A stretch of DNA of 37,008 nucleotides. Source: a virus. Made by a program: the position numbers and the translations under genes. The number at the start of each line of letters is the position of its first letter. The stretch's first letter is position 1. The stretch covers positions 1-37,008 of the IMG/VR virus record IMGVR_UViG_3300033997_000086; one strand, given 5' to 3'. This document shows positions 9,607 through 29,685 of the stretch, one piece after another. The notes under the pieces are model-generated. The model was not told the origin of the DNA and made no database searches. It worked only from the letters and a program-made list of their open reading frames with translations.

Positions 9607-9849
9607 ATGAAGCTAGTCACGCTGGAGAAGTGGGCAGAAGCCCACCTTGACCCTGTGCCGTCGCCCGCAACCCTGCGTATGTGGGCCAGAACGAGTCGCT
9701 TTGACCCGCCAGCGCGGAAGGTGGGCCGTAGCTACCGGGTGGACGAAAACGCGCGATACTGCGAACCTGAGCGGCCTGTGAACCTGCCCCAGGACAACTC
9801 GCTGCTTAGCCGCATGATGAGGGATCACTATGGCACCCAGGCCGCGTAA
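9607..9849 (+). CDS. xis: Excisionase
   Basis: A lambda Xis-type recombination directionality factor (80 aa). It has the typical start MKLVTLEKWAEAHL, the winged-helix segment PATLRMWARTSRFDPPA and PARKVGRSYRVDENARYCEP. Family members bend attachment-site DNA and steer the integrase toward excision. It overlaps the integrase gene by 20 bases, as in many lambdoid phages, which supports translational coupling. AGAGGTGAGCG precedes the start. Confidence 0.88.
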   Translation: MKLVTLEKWAEAHLDPVPSPATLRMWARTSRFDPPARKVGRSYRVDENARYCEPERPVNLPQDNSLLSRMMRDHYGTQAA

Positions 9850-10924
9850 AACTGGATCCAAAGACCTCCCGCCAAACCTGTACCGCAAGAAAGACAGCCG
9901 CAACGGCATCGTCTATTACAGCTACCGCAACCCCACCACTGGCAAAGTCTACGGCTTGGGCACCGACAAGGAAGCGGCCATAGCTCAGGCCGTCATCGGC
10001 AACCACTCGATGTTCGCCAGGCCAGAGCTTGCAGAGCGCATGGATAGGCCTGCCAAGCACGCGTTCGGCAAGTGGCTGGCCGAGTACAGCAAGATCATCG
10101 AAGACCGGGAGATTGAGGCGCAGACCCGCCGCAACCTGCGGATGCGGATCAAGCGGCTTGATGCGGAGTTCGGGAAGCACGACATCAGTGCCATCAGCAC
10201 GCTCATGATCGCGGACTACTTGGGCGGCATGGCCAAGGCGGGCAAGGCGCAGATGAGCAGAGCCATGCGCTCGCTGCTGCGTGACGTGTTCATGGAGGCA
10301 ATGGCGGCAGGCTGGGCGTCGTCGAACCCGGTAGAGGTGACAAAGGCGGCCAAGGTCAAGATCAAGCGAGAGCGCCTGACCCTGGATATGTGGCGGGCGA
10401 TTCATGCCAGGGCGCGTACGGACTGGCTGAAGCGTGCGATGGAGCTGGCGCTGATTACCGGCCAGCGGAGGGACGATATCGCCTCGATGCTGTTCAAGGA
10501 CGAGCAGGACGGCTATTTGCATGTCGTGCAGAAGAAGACCGGCCAGCGGCTGCGGCTGAGCACGGCTATCGGCCTGCAGTGCATCGGCCTGGATCTGGCC
10601 GGCGTAATCCGGCTGTGCCGCGACAACGTAGTGTCAAAGCACCTGATCCACCACCCGAGGACGATCAGCCGAGCCAAGGCCGGCAGCCCCATCGTTCTGG
10701 ACACGATCAGCAAGGCCTTTGCCGACGCGCGAGACGCTGCCGCAGAGGCCGGGGAGATCACGCTGACCGACAGCCCGCCAACCTTCCACGAAATGCGCTC
10801 CCTTGCCGCCCGCCTGCACGACGCAGAGGGCCGGGACGCACAGGCGCTGCTCGGCCATAAGTCCGCCCGAATGACTGAGCTTTACCGCGACAGCAGGGGC
10901 GCCGAGTGGATCGACGTGGCGTGA
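9830..10924 (+). CDS. int: Tyrosine integrase (lambda Int type)
   Basis: A site-specific recombinase (364 aa; lambda Int is 356). Residues 1-60 form the arm-site-binding domain (LPPNLYRKK, YYSYRNPTTGK, LGTDKEAAI). About 75-170 is the core-binding domain, and 180-364 the catalytic domain. Visible catalytic residues are Arg213 (ITGQRRDD), His320 and Arg323 (FHEMRSL), His343 (LGHKS) and nucleophile Tyr352 (ELYRDSRG), a complete R-H-R-H-Y set. It integrates phage DNA by recombining attP with a host site. GAGG lies eight bases before ATG 9830. The gene is convergent with the late operon and points to the candidate attP. Confidence 0.96.
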   Translation: MAPRPRKTGSKDLPPNLYRKKDSRNGIVYYSYRNPTTGKVYGLGTDKEAAIAQAVIGNHSMFARPELAERMDRPAKHAFGKWLAEYSKIIEDREIEAQTRRNLRMRIKRLDAEFGKHDISAISTLMIADYLGGMAKAGKAQMSRAMRSLLRDVFMEAMAAGWASSNPVEVTKAAKVKIKRERLTLDMWRAIHARARTDWLKRAMELALITGQRRDDIASMLFKDEQDGYLHVVQKKTGQRLRLSTAIGLQCIGLDLAGVIRLCRDNVVSKHLIHHPRTISRAKAGSPIVLDTISKAFADARDAAAEAGEITLTDSPPTFHEMRSLAARLHDAEGRDAQALLGHKSARMTELYRDSRGAEWIDVA

Positions 10925-10943
10925 ACATTACGAGGAACTGAAA

Positions 10944-11426
10944 ATGGCAAGACCGAGAATTCATGTCCTTCCGCAGAATCTCTACACGTCGAAAGGCTAC
11001 TATCGATACAAGAAATCGGACGGCACAGAGGTTTACCTAGGTGCAGACAAAGACGCCGCGATCAAATTCGCCTTGCACGCGAACCTGCACAGGGCGAATG
11101 GTTACGCACGCAGGCCGAACGGGGTCAGGACAAGGCTGAAAGAATTGCTTGACCACGAGCATATCGTTTCCCTTTGCCAGCCTTACTCTCCTTGTGTAGG
11201 CGTCTATTTCCTCATTTATGAAGAGAAGATCGTGTACGTTGGCCAGGCGACTAACTGCCACAGCAGGATAAGCTCTCATGCTGCCGGAAGGGAGATGAAG
11301 CTTTTTGATTCCTTCTACATAGTCGAATGCCCAGCGCACAAGCTTGATGAGCTTGAAGCACTTTACATCCGCAAGTTCTTGCCGCCACTGAACAAGCTTA
11401 TGAGCGGCGAAAGATATGTCTCTTGA
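10944..11426 (+). CDS. GIY-YIG nuclease fused to integrase arm-binding domain
   Basis: A 160-aa protein 20 bases after int, with its own ribosome site (GAGGAACTG). Residues 1-55 closely resemble the arm-DNA-binding domain of lambda-type integrases: LPQNLYTSKGYYRYKK then LGADKDAAIKFALHAN, parallel to LPPNLYRKK and LGTDKEAAIAQA in the integrase next door. Residues 84-155 are a GIY-YIG endonuclease: GVY at 86-88, YVG at 98-100, Arg108, His112, catalytic-type Glu138 and Asn150 in PPLNK. GIY-YIG domains cut DNA and normally borrow a separate binding domain for specificity. Here the domain suggests targeting of attachment-site arm sequences. Biological role unknown; it may be a homing-like or competitor-excluding enzyme. 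Confidence 0.8.
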   Translation: MARPRIHVLPQNLYTSKGYYRYKKSDGTEVYLGADKDAAIKFALHANLHRANGYARRPNGVRTRLKELLDHEHIVSLCQPYSPCVGVYFLIYEEKIVYVGQATNCHSRISSHAAGREMKLFDSFYIVECPAHKLDELEALYIRKFLPPLNKLMSGERYVS

Positions 11427-11429
11427 CTG

Positions 11430-11593
11430 GCATTTTGCAGAGATTTTGGAGATGATTTTGGGATGAGATTTTATGACTTCTAAATCAATGACTTACACCA
11501 TCTACGGCATCAAGGCCTGGGACACGGTGTAGGTTCTGGATTTTCCCATGTGAATCAATGCTTTGCGCTGATTTTTTACCATGTAAAAGCGTC
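11430..11593 (+). other. attP: Candidate attP with arm repeats and host-gene-like core
   Basis: An AT-rich segment, unlike its surroundings, directly after the integrase/GIY-YIG genes. Left arm: imperfect direct repeats of GATTTTGG(G)ATGA at about 11442, 11454 and 11467, plus a related CATTTTGCAGA at 11431. Right arm: GATTTTCCCATG (11539) and GATTTTTTACCATG (11570). Between them is a sequence that translates as MTYTIYGIKAWDTV-stop (ATG 11489-TAG 11532), matching the start of ArsC/YffB-family proteins. Inverted repeat TACACC 11494-11499 with GGTGTA 11526-11531 flanks part of it. The layout fits a lambda-type attP; core limits are inferred. Confidence 0.65.
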
Positions 11594-11637
11594 TCCTGAA
11601 GCAGCGTAGGAATCAAGCATGTAGGCATGGTTTTGGG

Positions 11638-11662
11638 GAAGAAAAGCCCGCGCTAGGCGGGC
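11638..11662 (-). terminator. Late operon terminator
   Basis: On the minus strand GCCCGC pairs with GCGGGC (11646-11651 with 11657-11662, five-base loop), followed by a TTTTCTTCC tract. It lies 19 bases beyond the stop of the last late gene and would end the whole leftward late transcript. It is nearly identical (15 of 17 stem-loop bases) to the terminator at 12985-13012. Confidence 0.85.
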
Positions 11663-28311: not shown

Positions 28312-29685
28312 CTAGAGCAAGCGCGCCACAGCCCTCGGATCGGGTACGGCGCGAAGCTCGACCGCGCCAAACTTCACAACGCCGGTACCGGAGGCGCCAC
28401 CGCCAGTCGAGCCGACGCGCACCTCAAGGCGCCAACGCAACGTGGCGCTACCGCTGACGATCTGAATCGGCGGCGTGACCAGCATCCCGTTGCTCATGGC
28501 GCGGGTGGGCAACTTGATGTTGCCGGCGCCATCGTCGAACGGCTCAAGGTCGTAGGCGATCAGGCCGTTGGTGCCGTTGTCCTTCAGGTACAGGCTGACG
28601 CCCTGCCAGCCGTTGAAGCTGCCGATGTCGGCCTCTACCGATGCCTGCACCCACGTGCCAGCCGGGTAGGTGTGCGTGGTGTCGGCGCTGTTGGTGCGGA
28701 AATAGATCAGGCTGTCGGTTGCGCCCGGCGTGCAGGTCAGCACCTGATAGTCGCCACGGCCATCGGCTCGGGTCTCTTTGGTGCAGGCCACCGTAGCGGC
28801 GCCGCTTGATACCTCGACGCGCATTCCGGTTGCGACAGTGCCAGTAGCGCCAGACGCCACAGCAGTGCCGCCAGTGCCGGTGCAGAACGGGTTGGTGAGC
28901 AGGTTCCCCAGCGGGTTGTTCGTGGCGTCGTACTTGTCATCCGGCGACCACACGCGCGGCGCAGGATCAGGTAGGAAGCGCTGCAGGAACGTAGCCAGGG
29001 CCTCACCCACTGCCACGCCACCAGGCGGGGAGAAGTGAATGCCGTCGTTGGAGTAGCCAGAGCGCGGCTCACCGTCAGCGCTTGCCGGGTCTACCCAGGC
29101 TTGGTTCCAGTCGAACAGGTAGCAACCATCGGTAACGTCGCAGAACTCGCGGGTCTTCTGGTTGATCCAGGCCGCTTTCTTGCGCTCGGCGCCGCCAGAG
29201 GCCCAGGACGAAACGCCCCGGCTCAGGATCGGCAGCATGATTACGACGATGCCGTAGGACAGGTAGAACTGCGCCAGGCTCTCGCGAGCTGCCTGGATCA
29301 CTTCCTTGGCTACCGGCGCCATGTCGTTGGTACCGGAGTCGAGGATAATCAGGTCGCACTTCAGCGACTCGGCCAGGTACCCCCTGCGCGCGTCGATCAG
29401 CGCAGCAGTCTGGCCAGAGACGCCAGCATTCAAGCCACGGAAGCTGCGAGTCGCACCAACTACCTGCGACGGCTCCCAGCCCTGATACACGGCCGGGTCG
29501 TGCCAGATCTCACAAGAGAAGCGACCACGCGAGAAGTAGCGCGCCCACGACAGCCAGCCACGGTTCCAGTGACTGATCTTGGCGCTGGTGGCCACATCGT
29601 TCTGTTGCACCAGGGACGTGCCAATGACGCCCACGCGGTTGCCTGGCCTACGAGTCTCGTAAGCTACGCTGCCTCGAAAAGCCAT
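28312..29685 (-). CDS. SGNH/GDSL hydrolase with beta-sandwich tail, spike-like
   Basis: 457 aa, first gene of the late operon. SGNH blocks are present: IGTSL (Ser24), NAGVSG (Gly88-91), GTNDM (Asn120) and DGIHFS (Asp214, His217). Residues 240-457 read as a carbohydrate-binding-like beta sandwich (LGNLLTNPFCTGTGG, then TWVQASVEADIGSFNGWQGV). SGNH enzymes remove acetyl or acyl groups, for example from capsule or LPS sugars, and occur in phage tailspikes. No signal peptide or membrane segment. GAGG lies seven bases before ATG 29685. Could be a virion-borne deacetylase or a lysis/host-modification enzyme; virion role is inferred. Confidence 0.7.
   Translation of the reverse strand: MAFRGSVAYETRRPGNRVGVIGTSLVQQNDVATSAKISHWNRGWLSWARYFSRGRFSCEIWHDPAVYQGWEPSQVVGATRSFRGLNAGVSGQTAALIDARRGYLAESLKCDLIILDSGTNDMAPVAKEVIQAARESLAQFYLSYGIVVIMLPILSRGVSSWASGGAERKKAAWINQKTREFCDVTDGCYLFDWNQAWVDPASADGEPRSGYSNDGIHFSPPGGVAVGEALATFLQRFLPDPAPRVWSPDDKYDATNNPLGNLLTNPFCTGTGGTAVASGATGTVATGMRVEVSSGAATVACTKETRADGRGDYQVLTCTPGATDSLIYFRTNSADTTHTYPAGTWVQASVEADIGSFNGWQGVSLYLKDNGTNGLIAYDLEPFDDGAGNIKLPTRAMSNGMLVTPPIQIVSGSATLRWRLEVRVGSTGGGASGTGVVKFGAVELRAVPDPRAVARLL

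Follow-up and report, generated by a model that had tools for sequence, protein, structure and literature searches.

The best described relative of the locus studied here is pp3, a prophage of P. aeruginosa that excises and circularises, its own int being required (PMC5367828). The 26-bp att of pp3 has been sequenced and lies at the 5' end of a gene of the ArsC family; the protein sequence is unchanged by integration and the same predicted -10 is found before and after it (PMC5367828). The yffB site is thus already known from this prophage. The phage analysed here, whose virus record of 37,008 bases is called the window below, resembles pp3 (LES prophage 3) in the family of the target gene, the 5'-end position, the core, a related integrase and the preservation of the protein, and the 26-bp att of pp3, once reverse-complemented, contains TACGGCATCAAAGCCTG (PMC5367828). 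However, the window phage belongs to a different lineage, with a gene for a GIY-YIG/arm-domain protein between int and attP, and it has no retained -10 (which is not a strict criterion), whereas most of its relatives have a GCATAAT motif.

Replacement of a host promoter by phage DNA has been demonstrated by experiment for HK022, which inserts between torT and torS, replaces the torS promoter and raises torS expression (PMC6814406). Like the phages considered here, it belongs to the lambda family and its int-side att DNA replaces the promoter of a neighbouring host gene (PMC6814406). By comparison, the yffB integrators also replace coding codons, and expression appears to be preserved. IMEVchUSA3, found in dusA, and SXT, found in prfC, are integrative mobilizable or conjugative elements with other integrases and other targets (PMC8409611).

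The attP of phage lambda shares with this locus its Int/Xis/IHF anatomy, including int-side arm repeats located between int and the core. Unlike the yffB site, the attB of lambda is intergenic. In the literature searched, which covered few subscription journals, no description was found of the genus-wide reach of the yffB site, of the overlap between int stop and -10, of its relocation by cargo or of the fossil int ends presented below. The reading favoured here, with a probability of about 0.93, is that the stretch under study is the attP of a temperate Pseudomonas phage with a lambda-type Int/IHF system, which would rebuild yffB on integration and, through its int-side DNA, keep yffB-dapD expressed. 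The attP anatomy, the site, the restoration of the frame and the placement of the motif can be read directly from the DNA.

The attP region of the window phage

The features of the region are collected in Table 1. Their order (int, int-side arms, IHF site, core, IHF site, distal arm) is that of the lambda attP map. Perfect matches to the IHF consensus occur only twice in the 37 kb of the window, once on either side of the core, each containing a copy of the 8-nt direct repeat AATCAATG that flanks it. The arm-like repeats proposed in the earlier note are real, including the copy on the far side of the core. Arm repeats and IHF sites are identified at consensus level only, and the arm pattern taken alone is not above chance over the whole window; the repeats count as evidence because they cluster at attP and recur in relatives, in which int-side repeats of the same kind lie at the same place. 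From this arrangement, we infer that Int and IHF would bind here and that recombination would take place between attP and attB. Since the attP is intact, the record represents the free form of the phage and not an integrated one.

Table 1. Features of the int-attP region, in window coordinates
Feature	Position	Strand	Remarks
Xis, excisionase gene	9607..9849	+	PHROG 629 excisionase, E 1e-20; adjoins int
Int, lambda-type tyrosine integrase gene	9830..10924	+	Pfam Arm-DNA-bind_1, E 6e-23; Phage_integrase, E 4e-11
Small protein gene (P0002), lambda-Int arm-binding domain fused to GIY-YIG	10944..11426	+	Pfam Arm-DNA-bind_1, E 3e-7; GIY-YIG, E 6e-6
Int-side (P') arm-type direct repeats	11432..11469	+	ATTTTGCAGA at 11432, ATTTTGGAGA at 11443, ATTTTGGGAT beyond; ATTTTGG-/TTTTGG-type
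Two in-frame start codons that would open yffB after integration	11473..11490	+	ATG at 11473 and ATG at 11488
IHF-consensus site, H' position	11483..11495	+	perfect WATCARNNNNTTR; overlaps ATG 11488
yffB-like attP core region	11488..11532	+	ATGACTTACACCATCTACGGCATCAAGGCCTGGGACACGGTGTAG, read as MTYTIYGIKAWDTV-stop
Crossover interval	11509..11519	+	ATCAAGGCCTG, ATCAARGCCTG; smallest stretch common to both junctions in relatives
Second IHF-consensus site, P-arm side	11553..11565	+	perfect WATCARNNNNTTR
P-arm copy of the arm repeat	11630..11639	+	GTTTTGGGGA; same element in relatives

Beyond the core lies a tail-fibre-like gene directed leftward, while the Xis, Int and GIY-YIG genes are directed rightward. 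The int gene ends with GTG GCG TGA, and the GCATAAT seen in relatives is absent there. Homologues of P0002 occupy the same place, between int and attP, in four relatives (L017, L019, L021 and L041). A related-locus search and a search of 398 genomes returned no relative of this protein, negatives that are weak because inspection by hand did find the homologue in L019 and its sisters. Two roles are possible for P0002: an influence on integration through binding to the attP arms, or that of a homing-type nuclease. Elsewhere in the window, a reading frame on the minus strand (28312-29685) matches a PHROG labelled lipase (phrog_6102, E 2e-53).

The yffB site and the restoration of its reading frame

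The earlier note had likened the core to the 5' end of an ArsC/YffB gene and had proposed its alignment with the yffB starts of Pseudomonas, which bears out the likeness. From ATG to GACAC, the core is identical to the best host yffB start at 35 of 38 nt, against a median of 26 matching nt over the same 38 nt in 97 unoccupied genomes. When window positions 9830-11640 were searched as DNA, the part at 11481-11525 matched yffB starts in dozens of Pseudomonas genomes, in most cases with 83-93% identity and with E down to 1e-9. An attB-like motif is present in 111 of 119 genomes of the genus, as a single copy in all but one. The names given by NCBIfam in the junction neighbourhood are ArsC family reductase (YffB), DapD_gpp and DapC_gpp, and YffB has a close match among solved structures in 1rw1, “yffB”. 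DapD acts in the synthesis of lysine and peptidoglycan.

The attP core is identical to codons about 8-11 of yffB, and the crossover interval lies immediately before the Cys codon, a residue with a known role in ArsC/Spx proteins. The base that follows separates phage from host, the former reading TGG (Trp) and the latter TGC or TGT (Cys of GIKACDT). The earlier note had regarded the core as a gene copy altered after the codons for GIKA. This holds for the right-hand part, where TGG stands in place of the Cys codon and is followed by a stop; this part is dead and goes to the other junction. It does not hold for the left-hand part: on the sequence, phage DNA to the left of ATCAARGCCTG is an in-frame replacement 5' end for yffB, providing a start codon and N-terminal codons.

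A search with the integrase found 49 relatives in viral contigs and 7 in genomes, and the window Int is 57-85% identical to most related integrases found. At the DNA level, a megablast of the region against public phages gave no match; the protein search matched LES phi3, phi2 and LPPA33, the LES phi3 int being 65.8% identical to that of the window. Most relatives with DNA kept beyond int are of two kinds. In circular or free relatives, int, arms and core are followed by G-GACGC. In integrated ones, the same series is followed by C/T-GACACCATGAAAAAGGC..., the rest of yffB and then dapD, and in several genomes and viral contigs these int-side junctions run into complete yffB and dapD. Prophages in yffB with a matching duplication of the core, anticipated in the earlier note, thus do exist and encode related integrases, and their int-side junctions agree with its proposal that the host gene receives its 5' region from phage DNA. 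Both junctions were mapped in P. composti (G001, 48.2 kb apart), in S. kunmingensis (8.4 kb apart), in P. bohemica (on different contigs, with a common stretch of exactly 11 bases, ATCAARGCCTG) and in a MAG; the crossover interval was defined from these pairs. Neither the search of 398 genomes for P0002 nor the DNA search with the window revealed a lysogen of the exact window phage or one carrying P0002, so that integration of the window phage is deduced from its relatives.

Two further observations concern the use of attachment sites in this group. The 8.4-kb element of S. kunmingensis (L055/L065, G003:C17, 1096889-1105285) is bounded by the same junctions and is either a remnant or a satellite that shares the attB. 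In other loci with related integrases (L024, L045, L056, L057, L294 and L296), arms of the same kind are joined to other host DNA; the junctions of L024, L045, L056 and L057 lead into a sensor-kinase-like reading frame. This suggests that the integrase group has a second attB.

In all 26 cargo-free junctions, an in-frame ATG is found within 13 codons, 18-39 nt before the core, and the int stop lies 85-89 nt from the core. The chance of such an ATG is about 0.14 per junction, although the 26 junctions are related and their counts are not independent. When the junction between the window and its closest host was simulated, the int-side product read MTSKSMTYTIYGIKACDTMKKA... and continued through the whole protein, restoring the yffB frame and giving a full-length YffB with the N-terminus MTSKSMTYTIYGIKAC or MTYTIYGIKAC. 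The other simulated junction reads MSYTLYGIKAWDTV-stop.

These data fit a model in which the phage would integrate into codons about 8-11 of yffB, in the dapC-yffB-dapD neighbourhood, by lambda-type Int/IHF recombination with a crossover within ATCAARGCCTG. The start codon and first codons would then come from int-side phage DNA, rebuilding yffB with a slightly changed N-terminus. Left behind at the other junction would be the original promoter and a stub in which TGG replaces the Cys codon and a stop follows.

The GCATAAT element and decayed int ends upstream of yffB

The genes dapC, yffB and dapD are neighbours in some species, where the end of dapC immediately precedes the yffB ATG; in others, dapC lies 0.2-8 kb upstream of yffB. 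Integration therefore cuts yffB and dapD off from whatever lay upstream. GCATAAT precedes the core at 87 of 97 unoccupied yffB starts, with a median distance of 82 nt. The same motif forms the last Ala codon and the stop of int in 26 of 26 cargo-free yffB integrators. The int stops of 8 relatives with junctions elsewhere (L024, L045, L056, L293-L296 and L298) all lack it. Several relatives at other sites have an int end of GCG TGA, GCC TAA, GCT TAG or GCA TAG, and L045 and L056 end otherwise. On the other side of the balance, L011 has GCATAAT at the int stop and no yffB junction in view. In most relatives, the int-side DNA brings GCATAAT close to the position of the native -10-like element of yffB, and expression of yffB and of downstream dapD should persist in the lysogen.

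In L291 (G350) and L292 (G366), 1.86-1.87 kb of other DNA lies between int and core. The int stops are there GCT TAA and GCC TAG, GCATAAT being lost, and a GCATAAT in L291 or a weaker GGATAAT in L292 is found next to the arms, about 93 nt before the core. This relocation is the strongest sign that the -10-like element is retained for the sake of the host gene rather than that of int. The inserted cargo of about 1.86 kb includes, in L292, an ATPase-like reading frame; the gap between int and att looks like a place where extra genes are inserted. In L019, which has a GIY-YIG gene like that of the window, GCATAAT is kept at the int stop, 595 nt from the core. As judged from the placement of the motif, GCATAAT would work as a promoter for yffB-dapD, and dapD expression would be the selective reason for its retention. 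The hexamer preceding GCATAAT at unoccupied yffB is far closer to the GACGTG of int than at other GCATAAT sites; part of this likeness lies in the extended -10 TG and the species are related, so that it is suggestive only.

The window itself has no GCATAAT between int and core (the best match there ranks 76th in the window), and a promoter scan of the window found none, so that the promoter part of the reading is unsupported for this phage. Its yffB would depend on read-through or on an unrecognised promoter, read-through being the likelier.

Some yffB starts adjoin int sequences in various states of decay. Out of 110 yffB starts first fetched, 8 have next to them an int gene that appears to be whole and is matched over a long part or at its C-terminus, and at least four species without an intact int have a decayed int end upstream of yffB. 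For example, only the last 68 residues of int are left in G109 (L256), int is broken within a 6.5-kb element in G022 (L252), and the match to the int-end profile exists at the DNA level only in G043 and G039. With an int-end DNA profile in which GCATAAT was masked, and with shuffled or reversed controls reaching a maximum of 5.4 bits, a fossil int end is strongly supported at four loci (L227, L175, L172 and L244) and moderately at L250, L202, L176 and L201 (10-15 bits versus at most 5.4 for the controls); L176 is not an independent case, since it forms the distal junction of the G022 element to which L175 also belongs. In most species, P. aeruginosa included, the profile does not support a fossil int end, and the proposal that every native upstream region of yffB has this origin was rejected.

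A wider reading, to which slightly better than even odds are given, is that this phage group carries a portable promoter-plus-start module for the yffB-dapD operon, whose -10 is usually the int stop and moves with the arms when cargo splits int from attP. Through repeated integration and decay, phage int ends would then have become the resident region upstream of yffB-dapD in several species of Pseudomonas, so that part of the genus would run a gene of the lysine/peptidoglycan pathway from a fossil prophage end.

Competing explanations and biological meaning

That integration knocks yffB out, or leaves it with no dedicated replacement promoter and dependent on read-through from int, agrees with the lack of a -10-like element between int and core in the window and with the direction of the Int and GIY-YIG genes, both toward yffB. 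This is nevertheless unlikely, as every relative retains the frame and the start codon, and as the -10-like element stays with the arms where cargo has come between these and int. Somewhat less probable still is that GCATAAT at the int stop is a by-product of the conservation of protein and codons (Asp-Val-Ala-stop) and no promoter. The conserved WIDVA C-terminus of Int speaks for it, but relatives integrated elsewhere use different codons and stops for these residues (GCG TGA, GCC TAA, GCT TAG), and the L291 motif lies 1.8 kb from int, next to the arms.

It is very improbable that the yffB-like stretch is a chance resemblance or a decayed gene fragment and no attachment site. Its reading frame does end after 14 codons, but it adjoins int and xis, is placed between arm and IHF-consensus sites and corresponds to the exact position at which relatives are integrated, whose paired junctions already refute this explanation for the relatives themselves.

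Under the attP reading, these phages use a coding gene that leads an operon as a safe harbour, since the part that is cut off is brought back. If the promoter reading is true, the promoter of a host operon has been repeatedly replaced by viral DNA, and the decayed copies found in the genus would constitute a natural series for testing promoter replacement. The window phage, which has no -10, is a useful contrast to its relatives.
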